Part shown: in pieces, positions 3 to 10,661 of the stretch
Layout of the letters: every line of letters begins with the position of its first letter
Numbering within the stretch: the stretch's first letter is position 1
Assembly (NCBI GenBank): GCA_016209865.1
Contig: JACQVL010000128.1
Span: 1 to 13,383 of the forward strand
From: Candidatus Latescibacterota bacterium
GTDB taxonomy: Bacteria > JAAXHH01 > JACQVL01
Length of the DNA stretch: 13,383 bases
Direction: 5' to 3'
Notes under the pieces: generated by a model
The model's database searches: none
Told to the model about the DNA's origin: nothing
What the model saw: only the letters and a program-made list of their open reading frames with translations
Program-made: the position numbers and the translations under genes

Positions 3-3000
3 GGGGAGATCGCCCCGCAGAGCGCACTCCCCCTTTCTCTCCCCACCGTGGGAGAGAAAGGGGGCCGGGGGGATAGTGAGGGAAAGACCCCGAACCCCGA
101 ATCCCGAACCCCGAGCCCTATCGTCCGCCTCACCGCCCGCATCGACTGGGAATCTCGCCCGGCGCAGAACCTCTACGCCTTCCTTCCCGGCACCGACCCG
201 GCCGTCGCGGATGAACTCATCGTGCTTGAAGCGTACTACGACGCGATGTCGGTCGTCCCGTCCCTCGCCCCTGGGGCGGAACAGGCATGCGGTCTGGCCG
301 CCCTCCTCGAGCTGGCCCGGTGGCTCACGGCACATCCGCTCAAACGGCCGGTGCTCTTCATGGCGTCGGCTGGACACGGCGAAGGCCTCGCCGGCGCCCG
401 GGCGTTCGTCGCCCGCCACGTCCGCCGGACGGACCACCCGCTGAAGGTGGCCCTCTTCCTCGCGCTCGACCTGTCGAGCGGGTCCGACCGACTGGGACTC
501 CTCTATAAAGGAAATTTCTACGATGAAGATCAGAAGTACCTCCAGCCGTGGGTCGCCCAGATCGGCCGCCAGGCGACCACCCTCGCCGGGGAGATCGGTC
601 AGGCGCTCCACCTCGACCCGGCTCGCCTCCTGGTCGACGGCATCAACCCGACCGGCGGGCGGACCTGGCAGACGTACATCCCCGGCCGCATCGCCCTCGA
701 CCATGAGCCGGTCGTCCTGGCGGGACGGCCCGGCCTGGCGTTCGTCACGGTGGAGGACGCGCGCCTGACCGTCGATACCCCCCTGGATACGGCGGAGCGC
801 GTGAACCTCGACAACCTCACCCGGCAAACGCGCACCCTGATGTGCCTCTTGCCCGACTTACTCAACACCTCCGCCCCGTTCGTCACGAAGCGGCTGATCG
901 ACGTCTGGGGCACGCTCTCCGGCCGGGTGGTGGAATTCGACGTCTCCGTCAATATCCTGCCGGACAAGCCCGTCCCAGATGCCCTCGTCACGGCGGCCTC
1001 GTTCGTCACCCCGAAGACGCTGATGGGCGTCCGGGCGATCCCGATGGGGATGACCGACGCTGCTGGACGATTCGCTCTGGATGGGTTAGCGACGGTCCGG
1101 GGCGTCGGGGGGTTGCGCGGACTGATGTCCGTCTCCGCGTTCCGATCCCACCCGGAGACGGGCGTGCTCGTCTACGCGCCCGACCGTGGAGCGCAGGGCG
1201 AGGGGAGCTTCCCGACGCGCGTCCGGATGCTCAGCGCCAGGCGAGAGGCGACGGTCGTCGTCTTCCGGTGCCAGCCCGTGACGCTGTTCGACCTGATCGA
1301 TCAACGGTACTTCTTCCCGCTCCAGACGCTCGCCGTCTACGACGCCGGGACGAACGGCCAGCCGTTCATCTACGGGCATGCTCTTCCGCAGTCGTGGGAC
1401 TTCAGTCAATCCGTCGAGCCGTGCGCGGTCGTCTTCGGCCAGCCGGGAGCGCGGCTCCGGGTGACGATGAGCTCCGGGTTAGCCGGCCGGCAACTCCTGC
1501 TCCTGAACGCGACGGAAGACGATCCCGACGGGACCGGGTTCCAGGTGGATGACCGGCCGGCCGTCGTCCACACCGCCTACCGGGTGGCCCGCGACATGTG
1601 GACGCTCGACGACGACCGCCTCCGGCAGTTTGCCCGTCATGGCATCATCAACCGCCAGGTCGACCGGCTGCACCGGACGGCGAAAGGACTGCTCGACCGC
1701 GCGGAGGCGGCGCTCCGGGCGCGGCGGTACGACGAGTTCATCGCGTCCGCGAAAGCCGCCTGGAGCGTCGAGTCGCGGGCGTATCCCGATATCTTGGGCA
1801 CGGTCGAGGATGCGGTCACGGGTGTGATGTTCTACCTGGCTCTGCTCGTCCCGTTCGCCTACTGCGCCGAGCGGCTGCTGTTCGCCGGCCGCCGGATCGA
1901 ATGGCGGATCATCGGGATGTTCGGCATCTTCACCGTCGTCTTCATCATCCTCCAGGTCGTCCATCCGGCGTTCGCCATTACCCTCACCCCCCTGATCGTT
2001 CTCTTAGCGTTCCTCATCATCGCTATGGCCTCGGCGGTCATCGGGATCGTCACGATGAAGTTCGAGGCGCGTCTCGCTGAGTTGAAGACCGGGCGGACGG
2101 GCCGGCACGAGGATGACGTCAGCCGGGTCGGGTCGATGGCCACCGCCGGGGTGCTGGGCATCGCCAACATGCGGAACCGTCCGTTCCGCACCGCGCTCAC
2201 CTGTCTGACGCTCGTGCTGCTCACGTTCTCCGTCATCTCGTTCACGTCCGTCATCCGCCATCTGCGGCTGAACAAGGTCGCCTATTCAGAGGCGCAACCC
2301 GCCTACGCCGGTCTCCTGCTCCGCCACCGGACGTGGGAACCGCTCGCGGACGAAACCTATGCCGTCTTTGCCAATGAGTTCGGGGAGAGCGGCCCGGTCG
2401 CACCGCGCACCTGGTACTACTCGTCGCGGGTGGGCGACCGCTCGTTCGTCGATGTCCGGAATCCCGCGTCCGGCGCGACGTTCGTGGCCACGGCGGTCGT
2501 CGGGTTGACGCATGAGGAGGCCCGGCTGCGTCCCTCGCTGTTAGCCTGTCTCGCGGGCGGTCGCTGGTTCAGCGCGGACGACCGGATGGGGGCGATCCTC
2601 CCGATCGGGGTCGCCCGGCGATTGGGCATCGACCCGGCGCGGCTCGACAGCGCCCGCGTGACGATCGCGGGCCGGCAGATGCCTGTCGTGGGGGTGATCG
2701 ATCCCGCGCGGTGGGATCGGTCGGCTGATCTTGACGCCGAGGCATTGACGCCGGTGGACTTCGTTCAGATGTCGGAGCGCCGGGCGCGCCAGGGACCGCC
2801 CGACCCGGAGGACTTCGAGGAGTATATCCACCTCCCGGCTGAGAACATCATCTTCCTTCCGTACCCGCTCGTCATCAGCTTAGGCGGCACGTTGCAGTCG
2901 ATCGCGGTCGGGTTTGCCGATGCTCGCGTCGTGGCCGAGACGCTCGACGCGCTCATGCCGCGGACGGCGCTGACGCTGTTCGCCGGGACGGGCGACCGGG

Positions 3001-3923
3001 TGTACCTGTACAGCACGATCGGGGCGACGGCGGTGGGCGGGCTGAGCGACCTGGTCGTCCCCATCCTGATCGCCGCGCTGATCGTGATGAACACGATGCT
3101 CGGCTCAGTGTACGAACGGACGCGGGAGATCGGGGTGTTCAACTCGGTCGGACTGGCCCCCGGTCACGTCGCCGCGCTGTTCTTGGCGGAAGCGTGCGTG
3201 TACGCGGTGATCGGGGTGGTGCTCGGCTACCTGATCGGCCAGAGCGTCTCCCGCCTGATCATCCGGTTCGACTGGCTGCCGGGGTTCGAGCTGAACGTCT
3301 CTTCCCTTGCGGCGGTGGGCGCGAGCGCGCTCGTCATGGCGGTGGTCATCCTCTCGACCGTCTACCCGGCGCGACTCGCCTCCCGGATCGCCGTGCCCGC
3401 CGTCGAGATGGGTTGGCGGCTGCCGCCGACGCCGGGCGACCGGCTCGTCATCCCCCTGCCGTTCACCGTGACGGGCAGCCATGCGATCGGGATCAACGCC
3501 TACCTGAAGGAGTTCCTCGACACGCACGTCGAGGCGGCGGTCGGCCAGTTCGCCTGCGATGAGGTGATGTTGTCGTCAACGCCTGTCATGTCTGATATTG
3601 ATACTCCGTACTCCGCACTCTACACTCCGCACTCGATCGGGCTCTCCCTCCGGTTCATCGCCTGGCTCGTCCCGTACGACCTCGGCGTCAGTCAACGGGT
3701 GGAGCTGCGGACGATCCCGACGGACGACCCGCACATCTCCGCGCTCGAATTCGTCATCGACCGGCTGAGCGGGGACGCTGCGTCCTGGCGGCGGGTGAAC
3801 CGGAACTTTCTGAACATCCTGCGGAAGCAGTTCCTGATCTGGCGGACGTTAGGAAGAAGCGGACAGGAGCGGTACGCGGAGGTAGGACGAGCGATGGTGG
3901 GAGGAGGCGCGGACGGGGAATGA
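3..3923 (+). CDS. M28-like (pseudo)peptidase fused to FtsX/MacB-type permease, 5'-partial
   Basis: Residues are counted from the GTG at 48, but the frame stays open to the window edge. That GTG lies inside a palindromic repeat, so the true start is probably upstream. Residues ~28-270 resemble an M28 aminopeptidase domain. The usual metal-binding positions are changed: AHYD reads AYYD (Y63), PGAxD reads PGAEQ (E78, Q79) and GEExG reads GHGEG (H110), so hydrolysis is unlikely. Residues ~285-585 form a soluble linker of unknown fold. Hydrophobic helices lie at ~590-612, 618-640, 645-668 and 714-735, followed by a large extracytoplasmic loop. An FtsX-type helix set follows at ~998-1110, including YERTREIGVFNSVGL just after the first helix, typical of MacB/LolC permeases. 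Residues ~1112-1291 are an extra C-terminal domain I do not recognise. No ATPase partner is visible; it may lie upstream. It is convergent with the toxin gene, 19 nt away. FtsX-type assignment is confident; the function is unknown. Confidence 0.8.
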   Translation, partial: GEIAPQSALPLSLPTVGEKGGRGDSEGKTPNPESRTPSPIVRLTARIDWESRPAQNLYAFLPGTDPAVADELIVLEAYYDAMSVVPSLAPGAEQACGLAALLELARWLTAHPLKRPVLFMASAGHGEGLAGARAFVARHVRRTDHPLKVALFLALDLSSGSDRLGLLYKGNFYDEDQKYLQPWVAQIGRQATTLAGEIGQALHLDPARLLVDGINPTGGRTWQTYIPGRIALDHEPVVLAGRPGLAFVTVEDARLTVDTPLDTAERVNLDNLTRQTRTLMCLLPDLLNTSAPFVTKRLIDVWGTLSGRVVEFDVSVNILPDKPVPDALVTAASFVTPKTLMGVRAIPMGMTDAAGRFALDGLATVRGVGGLRGLMSVSAFRSHPETGVLVYAPDRGAQGEGSFPTRVRMLSARREATVVVFRCQPVTLFDLIDQRYFFPLQTLAVYDAGTNGQPFIYGHALPQSWDFSQSVEPCAVVFGQPGARLRVTMSSGLAGRQLLLLNATEDDPDGTGFQVDDRPAVVHTAYRVARDMWTLDDDRLRQFARHGIINRQVDRLHRTAKGLLDRAEAALRARRYDEFIASAKAAWSVESRAYPDILGTVEDAVTGVMFYLALLVPFAYCAERLLFAGRRIEWRIIGMFGIFTVVFIILQVVHPAFAITLTPLIVLLAFLIIAMASAVIGIVTMKFEARLAELKTGRTGRHEDDVSRVGSMATAGVLGIANMRNRPFRTALTCLTLVLLTFSVISFTSVIRHLRLNKVAYSEAQPAYAGLLLRHRTWEPLADETYAVFANEFGESGPVAPRTWYYSSRVGDRSFVDVRNPASGATFVATAVVGLTHEEARLRPSLLACLAGGRWFSADDRMGAILPIGVARRLGIDPARLDSARVTIAGRQMPVVGVIDPARWDRSADLDAEALTPVDFVQMSERRARQGPPDPEDFEEYIHLPAENIIFLPYPLVISLGGTLQSIAVGFADARVVAETLDALMPRTALTLFAGTGDRVYLYSTIGATAVGGLSDLVVPILIAALIVMNTMLGSVYERTREIGVFNSVGLAPGHVAALFLAEACVYAVIGVVLGYLIGQSVSRLIIRFDWLPGFELNVSSLAAVGASALVMAVVILSTVYPARLASRIAVPAVEMGWRLPPTPGDRLVIPLPFTVTGSHAIGINAYLKEFLDTHVEAAVGQFACDEVMLSSTPVMSDIDTPYSALYTPHSIGLSLRFIAWLVPYDLGVSQRVELRTIPTDDPHISALEFVIDRLSGDAASWRRVNRNFLNILRKQFLIWRTLGRSGQERYAEVGRAMVGGGADGE
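29..64. repeat. Palindromic repeat, 15-bp arms, inside coding frame
   Basis: Left arm 29-43 (ccccctttctctccc) is the exact reverse complement of right arm 50-64, with a 6-nt loop. The flanking text (ccgggg, gtgaggg) matches the family of C/T-rich dispersed repeats that usually sit between genes. Here it is in frame with the permease ORF. Confidence 0.75.
88..115. repeat. Heptanucleotide tandem repeat (CCCCGAA-like, four units)
   Basis: Units 88-94, 95-101, 102-108 and 109-115 read ccccgaa, ccccgaa, tcccgaa, ccccgag. The run is in frame and encodes a Pro/Ser-rich stretch (TPNPESRTPSP) just before the recognisable M28-like domain. Confidence 0.8.
3603..3635. repeat. Heptanucleotide tandem repeat (ACTCCGC-like, five units)
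   Basis: Units start at 3603, 3610, 3617, 3624 and 3631 (last incomplete): actccgt, actccgc, actctac, actccgc, actcg. They are in frame within the C-terminal domain of the permease and encode DTPYSALYTPHS. The unit is 7 bp, as in the repeat at 88-115, but the sequence differs. Confidence 0.8.
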
Positions 3924-3942: not shown

Positions 3943-4219
3943 TCAATGAGGGTGCCGCTCAATATCGTGGGGACCGACACGGTAGAGGATATACGTGTCG
4001 CCCGCGATGACAAAGGTGAAGCGGTAGCTGCGGCTGACGCGGGCTTCCCAGAGATCCCGGCCCTCGGGGCCCCTGTTGGCCTTCCATCTTTCTGGCCCGG
4101 AGAGAGGGATGGCGCAGGTCGGACAGTAAAAACTCCAACGCCTTATCGCATCGGTTTTGGAGGTGGTGGGGAAGCTGCTGATATTGCCGCGCAAACCCAG
4201 GGGTAAAGGACGCCCTCAT
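3943..4219 (-). pseudogene. RelE/ParE-superfamily toxin, frameshifted
   Basis: The start ATG overlaps the antitoxin stop (ATGA, 4216-4219). The first frame gives 47 residues ending LRHPSLRARKMEG; the rest lies in the next frame and reads RDLWEARVSRSYRFTF, GDTYILYRVGPHDIERHPH. The two halves match the RelE/YafQ/HigB-like mRNA-interferase pattern (hydrophobic helix, HPSL, WEARVS, YRFTF, D-Y-L-RVG-HD). Nineteen nucleotides at 4060-4078 break the frame. They are bounded by GGCC on both sides, and removing them exactly restores an 85-residue protein, a normal length for the family. As written, neither frame gives a full toxin: the first makes 86 residues with a nonsense C-terminal half. Possible explanations are a natural inactivating insertion, an assembly error, or (less likely) recoding. 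Family membership is confident; loss of function is inferred. Confidence 0.75.
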
Positions 4220-4500
4220 ACCTGGGTGTCTTTCAGAGCGCGGATCAGTTCTTCAGCAGTCTCAAAGGGACCGACGAGCTTTCCTTGTTTGACCTCCTCG
4301 AACGCCTCCTGCATCATCCGCTGCCAGGTCTCGGTGTAGTACCACGCCTGATCTTTGGGGATGCGCTTGCGCGGGATCAGCAGGATCGCCTTCTCATTGG
4401 CTACGACTTCCAATTCCTCCCCGGCGGTGAGACCGAGCTGTTTGACGGTCGCGGCGGGGAGGGTAATCTCGCGTCGGGGTCCCAGTTTCACCTTAGGCAT
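4216..4500 (-). CDS. AbrB/MazE/SpoVT-type antitoxin
   Basis: This 94-residue protein has an N-terminal swapped-hairpin DNA-binding domain at residues 3-46: KVKLGPRREITLPAATVKQLGL, then GEELEVVANEKAILLIPRK. That is the AbrB-fold pattern of a basic strand, 'I-LP' and 'L-L--G-E'. Residues ~50-94 (YYTETWQRMMQEAFEEV, FETAEELIRAL) look helical and acidic, as expected of a toxin-wrapping tail. In such modules the antitoxin neutralises the toxin and represses its own operon. A purine-rich Shine-Dalgarno (ggggag) lies just before the ATG. The stop overlaps the toxin start by 4 nt, giving translational coupling. The partner toxin is broken, so this may now be an orphan antitoxin or a plain regulator. 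Confidence 0.85.
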   Translation of the reverse strand: MPKVKLGPRREITLPAATVKQLGLTAGEELEVVANEKAILLIPRKRIPKDQAWYYTETWQRMMQEAFEEVKQGKLVGPFETAEELIRALKDTQV

Positions 4501-5340: not shown

Positions 5341-6807
5341 CTACCCCAGCCCCGCGTGTTTGCAGACAATCTCCACCGCCTTGACGAGGGTTTTTGCGCC
5401 CAATCTCGCATACTCTTCGATGAGGTTACCGTCCTCATCCAGCGTCCCTAAGCCGGGACCGAGGAACATTTTCCCGCCGTATATCGTGGCCGGCTCGACC
5501 CCCATCTCGACCTGGGCGGACACGATCGGGTTGGTGTTTGCCCAGAGGTCTTCGAGGGTAAAGAGGGGAATGCCGAACCCGCCGTCGTCCCACGTCTGCT
5601 CGTAGTTCAACTCCGTGCCTCCGAGCTGATACGTCTTCGTGAAGATGAATTTGTCCCGGAACCGGCCCGGCGTGAACGATTGAAATTCTTCGACGATGAT
5701 CTCATGAAACCTGTCGATAGGGTCTTTCACGAGCTGCGGTCGGTCGCGCAGGACTCGCAGGTACGCTAACAGGCCGACGAGGGTATCCCGGCCGGGGTCG
5801 CTGAACGTGAAGACCGCCTTGCCGTGGGACGAGACCTCCCCGTACCGCTGCCCCCCCAATCCCATGCCCTTCCGCACCGGGTTGATGATCTCATCTTTCC
5901 CGATGATCAGGCCGCAGGCGGGCGCGCGTCCGGGCTTGTCCATGCTGTAGGTGATGATGTCCGCGCCGACATGACGGGGATCCATCCCGATGAATGGGAT
6001 CGACCCGCCGGTATCGACGATGAACGGGACGTCGTACTCGCGGGCGACGTCGCCGAGCCGCCGCATCAGGACGGGCGTCCCGTGCTCGTCTTTCTGTGCA
6101 TGGCCGTAGCTCGGCGTGTCGTACCCGATCGCAGTGACCGCGGCTAAGAGGGACGCATGCCGGGCCGCCGCCTTCCGGACGTTCTCCATCGTGTGATCGA
6201 CGTCGATCCGGGTCAGCAACGGGGTCGGGTTAAAGCGAATCCCGTGGGATTCATACCGGGCCCCCGCAAACCGTACGTAGAGGGCTTCTAAGTTGGCTAA
6301 GCTCTTCCCTTCAATCCCCAGCTCGCCCCCGGCGACGGTGCGGTCGACTAACAAGTTTTTATACTTCGGCGGGAACGCCCGGCCGTAGCCGCCGATCCAT
6401 TCCGGGTCTTCGCCGTAGAGCATCAGGAACCGGGCGCGGTAGATGTCCCCATGCCGCATGGCCGGGGGAGTGCACAGCGCTTCCATGCAGATGCGGATGG
6501 CGGCCTCGCACGTGTTGGCGACTGCCGCGTCGTACTCGTCGCCGTACACGTCTTTCACGACGTCACGGATGTCATCTTCGACGACGCGAACGGGGAGCGT
6601 CCGTCCGCCGCGATTCGCGTTGACGATCTCATCCAGCACGTAGCCGGGCAAGTTGCCCGGACGGGAGGAACTGCCCGGATACAGGCCGATATCAGCCTTC
6701 AGTTTCTCGATCCCCAATTGTTTACCGTACTGACGGGCTTCTTCATGGATCTTGGGAATGCTCTCGTAGATGTGCTGGTACCATCGGTAGCGGTACATGG
6801 GTTTCAT
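5341..6807 (-). CDS. Fold-type I PLP-dependent enzyme, unassigned family
   Basis: This 488-residue protein is the last gene of the four-gene operon, 17 nt after the aminotransferase, with AAGGAG before its ATG. PLP-enzyme features are visible. VPFIVDTGGS carries D265, the likely pyridine-nitrogen partner. ITYSMDKPGRAPACGLIIGK carries K291, the likely Schiff-base lysine, in a SelA/class-V-like 'DK...GLIIG' setting. Residues ~100-125 (VANTCEAAIRICMEAL) fit the phosphate-cup start of the large domain. The Gly-rich GKGMGLGGQRYGEVSSHGK-like stretch after the lysine is unusual. The N-terminal ~80 residues (WYQHIYESIPKIHEEA, GLYPGSSSRPGNLPGY) and the tail (IYGGKMFLGPGLG) do not remind me of tryptophanase, tyrosine phenol-lyase, SelA or a decarboxylase. 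The reaction could be beta-elimination, decarboxylation or transamination. The fold is confident, the substrate unknown. Confidence 0.85.
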   Translation of the reverse strand: MKPMYRYRWYQHIYESIPKIHEEARQYGKQLGIEKLKADIGLYPGSSSRPGNLPGYVLDEIVNANRGGRTLPVRVVEDDIRDVVKDVYGDEYDAAVANTCEAAIRICMEALCTPPAMRHGDIYRARFLMLYGEDPEWIGGYGRAFPPKYKNLLVDRTVAGGELGIEGKSLANLEALYVRFAGARYESHGIRFNPTPLLTRIDVDHTMENVRKAAARHASLLAAVTAIGYDTPSYGHAQKDEHGTPVLMRRLGDVAREYDVPFIVDTGGSIPFIGMDPRHVGADIITYSMDKPGRAPACGLIIGKDEIINPVRKGMGLGGQRYGEVSSHGKAVFTFSDPGRDTLVGLLAYLRVLRDRPQLVKDPIDRFHEIIVEEFQSFTPGRFRDKFIFTKTYQLGGTELNYEQTWDDGGFGIPLFTLEDLWANTNPIVSAQVEMGVEPATIYGGKMFLGPGLGTLDEDGNLIEEYARLGAKTLVKAVEIVCKHAGLG

Positions 6808-6824
6808 ACGGGAAGGCTCCTTAC

Positions 6825-7997
6825 TCAGATCGCTGCGTCCGCCACCTTCGAGGCCGTCCCTTTTTCCTCGGCCGTCCGGCGCAGGACAGCGGCGATGCGG
6901 TTCAGGCCCTCACGGAGATAAGCATGCTCCAGGCCGTAACTCACGCGCAGATGATGGGGAATTCCGAAATGGTCGCCCGGAGCGACGAGCACCGAGGCGT
7001 CGTGGATCAGGCGGTCGGTCAGGGTGATCGAATCTATCGCCAGGTGGTACCGGGGGAAGGCGATGGCCGCCGCCTGGGGCGGGACGACACTGACTACGTC
7101 GGCGTGCTCGTCCGCCCAGGCTTCGAACACCGACCAGCCGCGACGGATGTACTGGCGCGTCCGGTCGAGGAGGGCCGGCCGCACCTGGCGACTCAACGCT
7201 ATGGGGGCGAGCAGGTGGTTGGAGAGCTTCGCGGTGCTGATGGACAGGTACTCATGACGGGCCCAGAGCTGGTCGATCATCTCCACCGGTCCGACGACCC
7301 AGCCGATCCGCAGGCCGGGCAATCCGTACGCTTTGGAGAGGCTGCCCGCGGCTAGGACCCTGTCGTACCGCCCGTAGAACGTGGGCGTGAACGTGTCGGT
7401 CTCCCGTTCCGCCCCGGCATACACCTCATCCGTCAGCAGCCAGGCCCCGCGACGTTCGGCGACGCGCACGACCGCGTCCATCTCGGCGAGCGTCATGATA
7501 TGGCCGGTCGGGTTGTTCGGGTTGCACACGGCGACGAGCTTTGTCGCGTCCGTCACCGCCTGTCTGAGCTGCTCCTCATCCAGCGCCCAGCCACGGTCGG
7601 GGTCGAGACGGAATGTCATCCGCACCGCGCCGAGGTTGTGCGCAAGACCCCAGCCCTGCAAATAATTCGGGACCTGAATCGCCACAGAATCGCCCGCCTG
7701 AAGAAGGGTGGTGAACACCAGAAAATTCGCCTCCGCGCATCCGACCGTCACCAGGACGTTGTCGGGCGTCGTGCCGGGGTACCACTGGGCGATCGCTTCC
7801 CTGAGGGCAAGCGAGCCGTTCGCCACTCCATACCCTAACTCAATCTCCAGCATCCGCTGGACGAGCGTTGAATCATACGCCGCCAGCTCTGCCAGCGTGA
7901 CGGGATGGACGCCGCTCTCGGAGAGGTTGTACTCGACGACGTTCTCCCATCGGGACATGATCCGTTCCAGGTCGAACGGTTGGAACACGTGCGCCAT
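6825..7997 (-). CDS. Class I/II (AspC-like) PLP aminotransferase
   Basis: This 390-residue protein is a normal size for fold-type I aminotransferases. Diagnostic residues are present. N159-G165 reads NPNNPTG (N162 contacts the cofactor). LLTDEVYAG holds D190 and Y193. SLSKAYGLPGLRIGW carries the PLP lysine K222, followed by the usual G-R-IG. HHLRVSYGLE near residue 350 is the expected site of the carboxylate-binding arginine. ELGYGVANGSLALREAIAQWY is the standard substrate-entry segment. The protein should move an amino group between an amino acid and a keto acid, or act as a C-S or C-N lyase, as some members do; the sequence does not settle the substrate. A near-perfect Shine-Dalgarno (AAAGGAGGAT) precedes the ATG. 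It lies 30 nt after the permease gene, so substrate import and conversion are probably linked. Confidence 0.93.
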   Translation of the reverse strand: MAHVFQPFDLERIMSRWENVVEYNLSESGVHPVTLAELAAYDSTLVQRMLEIELGYGVANGSLALREAIAQWYPGTTPDNVLVTVGCAEANFLVFTTLLQAGDSVAIQVPNYLQGWGLAHNLGAVRMTFRLDPDRGWALDEEQLRQAVTDATKLVAVCNPNNPTGHIMTLAEMDAVVRVAERRGAWLLTDEVYAGAERETDTFTPTFYGRYDRVLAAGSLSKAYGLPGLRIGWVVGPVEMIDQLWARHEYLSISTAKLSNHLLAPIALSRQVRPALLDRTRQYIRRGWSVFEAWADEHADVVSVVPPQAAAIAFPRYHLAIDSITLTDRLIHDASVLVAPGDHFGIPHHLRVSYGLEHAYLREGLNRIAAVLRRTAEEKGTASKVADAAI

Positions 7998-8027
7998 GGC
8001 GTTGATCCTCCTTTGTCTGTTGTGGAG

Positions 8028-9446
8028 TCATTCCCGCGAACGCGGCAATCCTTTTCTCCGCCACGCATAGTACACCGGCACGCCGAGCGCGGTGAACCCC
8101 AATCCGGCCAGGGATTCGACGGGGGAGGCGAAGATCGTGTTGATCAGAATCCCCACCGACGCGAAGATGAACAGGAGCGGGATGGCCGGATAACCCCAGG
8201 CCTGATACGGCCGCGGGAGGTCGGGGTATTTCTTCCGCAGGGTGAACACGGACGCGGCGGCGACGATCCAGAAGATGATGACGACGAACATCATGTACGT
8301 GAACAGTTGTTCGAACGTCCCGGTGACGGCCAGGAGACACGCCCAGACGCCCTGGATGAGGATGGCAAAGCCGGGCGTCCGGAAGCGGGGATGGACGATC
8401 GACATTCTGTGGAAAAACAGCCGGTCTTGTGCCATCGCGTAGTACACGCGAGGGCCGACGAAGATGGAGCCGTTCAGCGCCCCGGACGAGGCGATCACGA
8501 CGACGGCAGCGATCACACCGGCCGCCGTTTGTCCATGCAGCGCCGTCACCGCTTTCTCGGCGACCCTGACCACCCCCACCATCTCATCGATGGGGAGGGC
8601 GCGAAGGTAGACGTAGTTCATCGACACATAGAGAAGGGTAATGATCGAGGTGCCCATGACGAGCGCCCTGGGAATCGTGCGCTGCGGGTTCTTGATCTCT
8701 CCCGCGATGTAGTTGATATTGTTCCAGCCGTCGAACGCGTAGGACACCGCGATCAACGCGACGCCGAACCCGGTGATGAGTCTGCCCACGCTGAATCCCG
8801 CCGGCCGCAGGGCCAGCTCAGGATGAATGCCTGACCCGGCCGTCACCCCGAACACGATCAGGATGGCGATCGCGCCGATCTTCGCCACAGTACACACGTT
8901 CTGGATCGTCTTCCCCAGTCCCACGCCTAAGTAATTGACCGCCGATAAGCCGAGAATCAGGATGCATGCGACGACCTGTCCCATCGAGAGGGTGTAGTGA
9001 ATGCCTCGATGAAGCACCCGGATGTCGTGAGTCAAGACGACCGTCGTGGTCGACAGGGAGGGGAAAAAGTAGCCGAGATACTCCGCGCAGGCGACCGCCA
9101 CCGCCGCCACCGCACCGGTCGCCACCGTGAAGAACATGATCCAGCCGTACAGAAAGCCGGGGAGCGCCCCGTACGCTTCTCGGATGTACACGTATTGCCC
9201 CCCGGCCTCGGGCATCGCCGCGCCCAGTTCCGCGTAGATCAGCGCCCCGGCTAAGGTGAGCAGGCCGCCGACGATCCACGCCAGCAGGATCAGGCCGGGT
9301 GAAGGGATGGACTGCGCGATCAGACCGGTGGTGAGGAAAATCCCCGACCCGACGACGATGCCCACTATCATCATCGTCGCGTCGAACAGGCCGAGCCGCC
9401 TGACTAAGCCGTCCTGATGCGAACTGTCTACACTCGCGTTCGCCAT
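8028..9446 (-). CDS. APC-superfamily amino-acid permease (LAT-like)
   Basis: This 472-residue integral membrane protein has about 12 hydrophobic helices, the standard APC layout. In helix 1, GIVVGSGIFLTTG (GSGIF at 33-37) is the unwound substrate-binding segment. Helix 2 and the following loop read ALIYAELGAAMPEAGGQYVY. Helix 6 reads AFDGWNNINYIAGEIKNPQR, the pattern of L-type (SLC7/LAT) transporters and their bacterial relatives. These move neutral or bulky amino acids, often by exchange. The start is 6 nt after the DUF362 stop, with a GAGGGTG ribosome site inside the end of that gene, so translation is coupled. The last codons (GLPRSRE) run through a REP-like palindrome. The substrate is probably that of the two PLP enzymes downstream; this is inferred from position only. 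Confidence 0.93.
   Translation of the reverse strand: MANASVDSSHQDGLVRRLGLFDATMMIVGIVVGSGIFLTTGLIAQSIPSPGLILLAWIVGGLLTLAGALIYAELGAAMPEAGGQYVYIREAYGALPGFLYGWIMFFTVATGAVAAVAVACAEYLGYFFPSLSTTTVVLTHDIRVLHRGIHYTLSMGQVVACILILGLSAVNYLGVGLGKTIQNVCTVAKIGAIAILIVFGVTAGSGIHPELALRPAGFSVGRLITGFGVALIAVSYAFDGWNNINYIAGEIKNPQRTIPRALVMGTSIITLLYVSMNYVYLRALPIDEMVGVVRVAEKAVTALHGQTAAGVIAAVVVIASSGALNGSIFVGPRVYYAMAQDRLFFHRMSIVHPRFRTPGFAILIQGVWACLLAVTGTFEQLFTYMMFVVIIFWIVAAASVFTLRKKYPDLPRPYQAWGYPAIPLLFIFASVGILINTIFASPVESLAGLGFTALGVPVYYAWRRKGLPRSRE
8030..8049. repeat. REP/dRS3-like short palindrome at the permease 3' end
   Basis: attcccgcg and cgcggcaat are 9-bp arms with one mismatch around an AA centre, within the widespread 'TCATTCCCGCGAA...GCGG.AATCC' type of dispersed repeat. 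The permease stop codon (8028-8030) and its last few codons are supplied by this element. Confidence 0.6.
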
Positions 9447-9452
9447 ACACCC

Positions 9453-10661
9453 TCACGCCGCCCGGTTCTGCTCGTAGACCCGGAAGTGCTCCCCTTCGCG
9501 CTCCTCCGGGTCGGCCAGTTTCAGCCAGACCGCGTGGTCCTTCTTCTCCCCGCTGACTTCCTGAACCGCCCCCGCCTGACTCGGGTCGTTCCCGCTCCAG
9601 ACGACTTCCCCGTCCTGAAGGTAAATAAACCGGCCGGCGTACCGCTCAGCGAGCCGGTTCTGGTCCGACCGGTAGATTAGCGCCTGCTCGCAGGCGGAGC
9701 GACGGAGGTTCATGATCAACTCCGGCGGGTCGTACTCAAAGGAATTAAATTCCGCGAGCGGGGGCGTCAGGTCGGTCTCAAAATCGATCTCCTCTAAATT
9801 GACCGTCCCGAACCCGTGATCGGCGGCGACTTTGATCGGGCTGCGGTCGCGGCGGTACGGGGGACTCGGCCAGTCGAGGGTCGGGTCGTGGCCCATCAGG
9901 TATGCCCCGCACGCGTCCGTGGCGATGACGTGATCCCCCGCGATCAGGGCGTCGCAGACCCGGCCCTCGCCGCCCCACTCACAGCCTTTCTGGCCGGTCA
10001 GGGCGTCGATGATGTTGAGGCACGGCTGGGTGATCAGACCCAGGTCGGGGAGGACGTAGGACAGCCGGATGACGTGATGGTAGTACGATCGCACCCGGCC
10101 GTGCGGCATGACCGGCGGAAGGCCGAAGAGGTTCTTCAGGCAGAGGGTGATTCCCATGAACGCATGGTTCTTCATCTTGGCGATGGAGACGAACGCGTCC
10201 GATTCGCCGATGACCGAGGAGAGCTGGTACTCCGAGAACATCAGCCCGCCGCCGGGGACGCGGTACCGGGTGAACGGAGGGTCCCCGGCCTCGATGTACG
10301 GGATGCCGAACTCCTCGAAGATCGGCCGCATGTTGAAGTCGTTCCCCGGCCGTTCGCCGGGGGATGCAAAACTGCTGTCGAGGACGACGAGCTGCGCGTC
10401 GGTGCGTTCGCGCAAGAGACGCAGTGAGGCGCGGAGGACGTCCTCGTCCACCAGCTCCTGGCGGCGACCGCCGACGCGCCGGATGTTGTCCGTCCGCATC
10501 TGCATGTTGACCTTGAGGACGACCTTCTTCGCGTTCTCCAGCTTCTCCCATGAGCGCGAAAGGGGCGCGGTGATCGTCTTGAGCTTCTCGTAGATTTCAT
10601 CCGGCGACGCGGTGTGGCTGCACCGTAGCGCACGGACCTTATACGCTTTCTCGTCTGGCAT
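9453..10661 (-). CDS. DUF362 domain-containing protein
   Basis: This 402-residue protein is the first gene of the operon. The DUF362 pattern is clear. VVLKVNMQM near residue 50 is followed by LVVLDSSFASPGERP. FVSIAKMKNHAFMGITLCLKNLFG carries K162/K164/H166 and the KN-FG signature. SYYHHVIRLSYVLPDL is the conserved H...DL segment. LNIIDALTGQKGCEWGGEG and VIATDACGAYLMG match the 'I-DA---G-G--G' and 'A-DA-----G' blocks. No ferredoxin-type CxxCxxC cluster is present, so this is the short form without a 4Fe-4S domain. The biochemical role of DUF362 is not settled. No signal peptide is seen, so it is probably cytoplasmic. A GAGGAG ribosome site (10669-10674) lies 7 nt before the ATG. Heading this operon, it may modify the transported amino compound or support the PLP enzymes; that is inference. 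Confidence 0.88.
   Translation of the reverse strand: MPDEKAYKVRALRCSHTASPDEIYEKLKTITAPLSRSWEKLENAKKVVLKVNMQMRTDNIRRVGGRRQELVDEDVLRASLRLLRERTDAQLVVLDSSFASPGERPGNDFNMRPIFEEFGIPYIEAGDPPFTRYRVPGGGLMFSEYQLSSVIGESDAFVSIAKMKNHAFMGITLCLKNLFGLPPVMPHGRVRSYYHHVIRLSYVLPDLGLITQPCLNIIDALTGQKGCEWGGEGRVCDALIAGDHVIATDACGAYLMGHDPTLDWPSPPYRRDRSPIKVAADHGFGTVNLEEIDFETDLTPPLAEFNSFEYDPPELIMNLRRSACEQALIYRSDQNRLAERYAGRFIYLQDGEVVWSGNDPSQAGAVQEVSGEKKDHAVWLKLADPEEREGEHFRVYEQNRAA

Follow-up and report, generated by a model that had tools for sequence, protein, structure and literature searches.

A conserved aminotransferase–PLP enzyme pair within a four-gene locus of a candidate-phylum bacterium

Layout of the four-gene locus

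The window, meaning the whole stretch of 13,383 nucleotides analysed here, is part of a 3.75-Mb genome of Candidatus Latescibacterota that is 83% complete. An earlier note on this DNA had described four closely spaced genes on one strand, and all four open reading frames are present on the minus strand, in the order DUF362, permease, AT and PLPX, with intergenic gaps of 6, 30 and 17 nt. The genes, together with two features inside PLPX, are as follows.

9453–10661, minus strand: DUF362 protein, 402 amino acids, lacking a Cys-x2-Cys motif (PF04015, 86 bits, above the gathering score of 24)
8028–9446, minus strand: APC-superfamily amino-acid permease, 472 amino acids (PF13520; nearest to the L-type (LAT) transporters, TIGR00911)
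6825–7997, minus strand: class I/II aminotransferase (AT), 390 amino acids (PF00155, 164 bits)
5341–6807, minus strand: PLP enzyme of an unnamed family (PLPX), 488 amino acids (no Pfam or NCBIfam family above cut-off)
6292–6468, minus strand: family-specific insertion of PLPX, approximately residues 114–172, about 55 residues (motif YGRxxPxxYK..DR..GE.G)
5935–5937, minus strand: codon of K291 of PLPX, the predicted PLP Schiff-base lysine in YSMDK (invariant in 21 sequences)

G6PD lies before the set, separated from DUF362 by a 104-nt gap, and has a GC3 of 0.67 compared with 0.81–0.87 over the four genes. The coding sequences of DUF362, AT and PLPX are real, because conserved orthologues (56–78% identity) exist in related genomes. 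The good ribosome sites reported earlier hold for DUF362 (GAGGAG), AT (AGGAGG) and PLPX (AGGAG) but not for the permease, which is preceded by a weaker GAGG. A candidate promoter ahead of DUF362 was not recovered: a consensus scan for sigma-70-like sites, a weak test in this phylum, found 0 compared with 1.4 expected by chance. The gap after G6PD contains a near-match, TTGACG...CACATT (8/12).

The Pfam scores given above confirm the identities proposed for DUF362 and AT. The LAT-type label stands for the permease at the level of the APC superfamily, to which PF13520 assigns it; TIGR00911 is its best subfamily model, and at 250 bits against a cut-off of 702 the permease is not a member. DUF362 has the PF04015 domain in common with a family that offers no biochemical role to transfer, placed in Pfam clan CL0471 together with the LarA domain DUF2088 (PMC11770544). 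A PDB sequence search returned no solved homologue of DUF362, and a literature search found no paper linking it to such an operon.

Elsewhere in the window, positions 48–3923 on the plus strand hold an open reading frame that is open at the window edge (at least 1,291 amino acids) and combines M28 peptidase and FtsX permease domains in one protein. Positions 3943–4500 on the minus strand hold a MazE-like antitoxin (PF04014) and then an 83-amino-acid open reading frame that resembles a RelE-type toxin by eye and has no Pfam hit.

Gene order in the phylum

Across 16 genomes of the phylum (the window genome and 15 others), PLPX is present in every one, at 75–78% identity, and in the synteny tally 15 of them, the window genome included, carry AT and PLPX in a constant order on one strand. 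The idea that the four genes co-occur in other genomes failed in this comparison (0 of 15), as neither DUF362 nor the permease lies in the PLPX operon of any of the 15 other genomes in the tally; what the neighbourhood check did return, in 14 of them, was the AT–PLPX pair. The four genes are neither conserved nor recurrent as a unit, and the AT–PLPX pair is the core of the earlier idea that survives the checks.

Thirteen of the 15 other genomes encode, on one strand, an ornithine-cyclodeaminase-family reductase (OCD), AT, a class V PLP enzyme (KYN_V) and PLPX. In G013, AT and KYN_V are separated by unrelated genes; in G014, AT–KYN_V–PLPX is retained and the contig ends before OCD; and in G011, PLPX has no AT nearby and a permease relative (38% identity) is found near it on the opposite strand. 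OCD was not found in the window genome, where at 83% completeness OCD and DUF6917 (described below) could be unsampled, and the closest KYN_V-like proteins there are only about 31% identical. On these grounds DUF362 and the permease appear to have become attached to AT–PLPX in this genome, the gene order itself being direct sequence. In most genomes of genus g3, a divergent KamA-family radical SAM protein (L005:9678–11069 and equivalents) lies downstream of PLPX; it is lysine 2,3-aminomutase-like (121 bits, below cut-off) and convergent to the OCD–AT–KYN_V–PLPX operon.

DUF362 is encoded by 13 of the 15 other genomes (56–62% identity) at a separate locus, beside MDR dehydrogenase, PhyH and TRAP-transporter genes in most of the relatives' loci read. 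A functional partnership between DUF362 and AT–PLPX is unsupported, the two being unlinked in relatives, and the import-and-convert module first proposed is plausible for this genome only, with no supported part for DUF362. It is quite possible, though less than probable, that rearrangement set DUF362 and the permease upstream of AT–PLPX and that they are functionally unrelated to the pair, as the conserved yet unlinked position of DUF362 and the failure of the permease to be kept adjoining PLPX would both imply. However, the 6- and 30-nt gaps and the alike GC3 values suggest co-expression, and G011 also has a permease relative near PLPX.

The PLPX family

No Pfam or NCBIfam family scores above cut-off on PLPX, in agreement with its earlier description as unassigned, and it falls inside no characterised family; the best traces are TIGR01437, SelA and class V aminotransferase. 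The DgaE/SelA-related model TIGR01437 gives a weak, local match (26 bits, cut-off 385; E 3e-6), PF03841 (SelA) gives 16 bits against 22.8 and the Pfam class V aminotransferase model gives 18 bits, with weak scores in 5 of 20 family members. Remote similarity to SelA/DgaE, Sep-tRNA:Cys-tRNA synthase, cysteine desulfurases and O-acetylhomoserine sulfhydrylase is confined to the PLP-lysine region. Membership of the SelA/DgaE group was rejected, as the scores fall below the TIGR01437 and PF03841 cut-offs. PLPX resembles these enzymes in fold type I and in a local D...GAD...S.DK..G.P..G.I.G pattern around the PLP lysine, but differs in its conserved insertion, about 55 residues long, and in having no detected similarity to them beyond the PLP-lysine region.

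An alignment of 21 PLPX sequences from five lineages contains 83 invariant positions. These include K291, its predicted partner aspartate D265 (21 of 21 sequences) and C100–E101 of the phosphate-cup motif; the T-C-E-A cup is separated from the lysine by 192 residues, compared with about 137 in AT. Within the insertion, 16 of the 51 residues at positions 114–164 are invariant (P114, P115, G120, Y123, R126, Y141, G142, R143, P146, Y149, K150, D155, R156, G161, E162 and G164). The cofactor side reads D-T-G-G-S and DKPGRAP in the window clade and D-N-A-W-G and DKAxGAP in the other clade. Because the clades differ right at the cofactor, the comparison suggests a change of substrate.

AlphaFold2 supplied with 14 close sequences only gave an unusable model (pLDDT 38.6), whereas 20 sequences including distant homologues gave a pLDDT of 74.9 and a pTM of 0.80. 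This model is unreliable at residues 134–169 and 320–331, and the insertion is modelled with low confidence. The top Foldseek matches were SepCysS, D-phenylglycine aminotransferase, SelA and Cap15 (E ~1e-11). A second aligner gave tied Z scores of 19–21 to fifty entries from widely differing families, including SelA, SepCysS, sugar aminotransferases, GABA aminotransferase, transaminases, SHMT and threonine aldolase, and all 1,000 re-aligned Foldseek chains scored Z ≥ 8; no structural relative stood out among fold-type I enzymes in either search. SepCysS/SepSecS likewise have fold type I, and 3wkr is the top Foldseek match (E 1.6e-11, Z 20), but identity is 12–14% and PLPX belongs to metabolic operons that also encode transporters and RidA. 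The modelled topology and the invariant lysine and aspartate show PLPX to be a fold-type I PLP-dependent enzyme.

Among 384 genomes sampled across the domain, PLPX was found in the phylum and in just 4 genomes outside it; in one further phylum, a second search recovered it from 10 of 103 genomes, which all belong to one family. This phylum is probably Thermotogota, because the best match of the glutamate dehydrogenase next to PLPX is Thermotoga maritima 1B26 (630 bits; the next distinct protein scores 473). Full-length homologues at 39–44% identity occur in the Thermotogota-like genomes, in three other genomes (G143 and G280, the only two of their class in the search set, and G094, the only one of its phylum) and on a Variovorax paradoxus plasmid, whose homologue is 39.5% identical to the window PLPX and 44% to a Thermotogota-like one. 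No relatives were found in viral contigs, and a PHROGs search returned nothing. In a tree, the window clade stands apart from the others (100/100) and Variovorax sits on a long, unsure branch. The PLPX family is conserved across the whole phylum examined and sporadic elsewhere.

Companions of PLPX and a candidate pathway

Outside the phylum, PLPX recurs with a small set of partners. In Variovorax, a TauABC/SsuABC-like ABC transporter is followed by PLPX and RidA; G143 and G280 share the order DUF6917–PLPX–RidA–B12-binding protein; and Thermotogota-like genomes have a YheO-type regulator, RidA, DUF6917, PLPX, an FAD protein and a membrane protein, or a variant of this order with a DAO-type oxidase, TRAP transporter and racemase. 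G094 retains DUF6917–PLPX. The transporter beside PLPX thus varies between the LAT permease of the window, the TauABC-like ABC system of Variovorax and a TRAP/TAXI or other membrane protein in the Thermotogota-like genomes. RidA adjoins PLPX or lies one gene off in the Thermotogota-like genomes, G143/G280 and Variovorax, and is not beside it in the window or most of its phylum. RidA proteins also serve oxidases and other imine sources. Since RidA is near PLPX also at loci with no amine oxidase beside PLPX, it most simply serves PLPX.

DUF6917 (PF21891) is encoded by 21 of 23 PLPX genomes and by none of 14 control genomes. It adjoins PLPX outside the window phylum (L089–L097, L074–L077); genomes of the phylum carry it at a different locus, next to threonine synthase, a D-Ala-D-Ala carboxypeptidase-like protein and in some cases DapF, names assigned partly by reading. 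The association is not exclusive, as Thermomicrobium and Streptomyces plasmids carry DUF6917 with no PLPX match. A literature search found no paper naming DUF6917. DUF6917 is further found next to a proline racemase, near LysX and, in Thermomicrobium roseum, next to a TPP enzyme (also L124–L128); in Streptomyces it lies inside a gene annotated dxs.

Several of these loci also encode a protein of about 600 amino acids with an N-terminal B12-binding domain like that of lysine 5,6-/ornithine 4,5-aminomutase (L092:14570–17235, L074:6374–8191 and L075:12215–14050, with equivalents of the L092 protein in L089, L091, L093 and L094). Its remaining ~480 residues have no Pfam match, and it is possibly a new B12 enzyme. 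In Thermotogota-like genomes a KamB-like reactivase (191 bits, cut-off 210) follows it.

AT falls in the PRK07324/GntC/VioD branch, scoring below cut-off for NF005593 (278 against 476 bits) and for the GntC (266 against 415) and VioD (238 against 391) equivalogs. It aligns over its full length with GntC/VioD and the Streptococcus suis protein 3OP7 (180–187 bits), keeping the PLP lysine and aspartate, and its closest solved structures are 3OP7 and GntC 8FFT. GntC and VioD make cyclic arginine derivatives, and of the GntC residues named in the same work, T84 and H250 lie on the guanidinium side (PMC10367076). AT keeps E9, S25 and K219 but has G for S26, A for T84 and I for H250. Because S26, T84 and H250 are lost, arginine cyclisation by AT appears unlikely, and on these residues and the cut-offs its assignment as a GntC/VioD-type arginine cyclase was rejected.

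Plasmid-borne AT relatives lie beside OCD (Streptomyces, Pararhizobium, Mesorhizobium), RidA or amino-acid/amine ABC transporters. A plasmid of Mesorhizobium sp. 113-3-3 (NZ_AP023245; L064:2733–8496) carries OCD (50% identity), AT (40%) and the class V enzyme (47%) together; the cluster further includes an amine ABC transporter, RidA and a member of the allantoate-amidohydrolase family. This cluster shares with the phylum operon the three families upstream of PLPX, along with a transporter and RidA, but has no PLPX, DUF362 or APC permease within the stretch read. We found no experimental description of the OCD–AT–class V triad.

We tentatively prefer, at somewhat less than even confidence, a reading drawn from these neighbours and from weak similarity, in which DUF362, the permease, AT and PLPX would be one transcriptional unit for amino-acid catabolism. 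The permease would import an amino acid or derivative, AT would move the amino group of the imported compound, and PLPX, forming a PLP aldimine at K291, would catalyse α,β-elimination of the ammonia-lyase or dehydratase type and release an enamine/imine. Elsewhere, the neighbouring RidA would hydrolyse this product to keto acid and ammonia; two studies describe RidA as hydrolysing the enamines or imines that PLP-dependent elimination enzymes produce (PMC4433059, PMC5619798). In the window genome the unit would have been re-assembled, with DUF362 and the permease replacing OCD and the class V enzyme. Elimination is favoured mainly because RidA is close to PLPX where no oxidase adjoins PLPX. Most remote similarities of PLPX are to elimination/replacement enzymes, which we counted for this chemistry. 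Against it stand the weak, local nature of the SelA/DgaE similarity, a model that comes roughly as near to transaminases, SHMT and threonine aldolase as to SepCysS, the separation of RidA from PLPX in the window and most of its phylum, and the service of RidA to other imine sources.

The same structural closeness, which extends to sugar aminotransferases and GABA aminotransferase, and the weak class V aminotransferase scores in 5 of 20 members would fit a transferase or decarboxylase (transaminase-, SHMT- or aldolase-like) in an operon for general amino-acid interconversion that eliminates no enamine. We consider this somewhat unlikely, as RidA adjoins PLPX in several unrelated lineages and AT and, in relatives, the class V enzyme already give the operon other PLP chemistry. 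Pathways for non-protein amino acids repeatedly contain OCD-family and PLP enzymes, and OCD, AT, the class V enzyme and PLPX might together make a non-standard (diamino or cyclic imino) amino acid, with the window genome retaining part of the module. This is improbable: AT does belong to the branch of GntC and VioD, makers of cyclic arginine derivatives (PMC10367076), but the GntC guanidinium-pocket residues T84 and H250 are A and I in AT, no NRPS-like gene was seen in the loci read, and near-universality in the phylum and an uptake permease suit housekeeping or catabolic use.

PLPX may found a new functional family of fold type I and, with DUF6917 and RidA, carry out an undescribed amino-acid elimination step; the family is universal in the genomes examined of one candidate phylum and recurs in a Thermotogota-like family near genes of lysine-aminomutase type (KamB, B12-binding). 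We regard this new role as possible rather than probable. The PLPX enzyme, and not the four-gene set, is the part worth testing. RidA, DUF6917 and AT with OCD and the class V enzyme make a small expressible set for finding its reaction, and in a culturable organism the OCD–AT–class V triad represents an apparently undescribed amino-acid pathway. The companions of PLPX would offer a first functional handle on DUF6917, and the PLPX family, outside Pfam and NCBIfam coverage, has been kept in every genome examined of a phylum without cultured members and in unrelated thermophiles.
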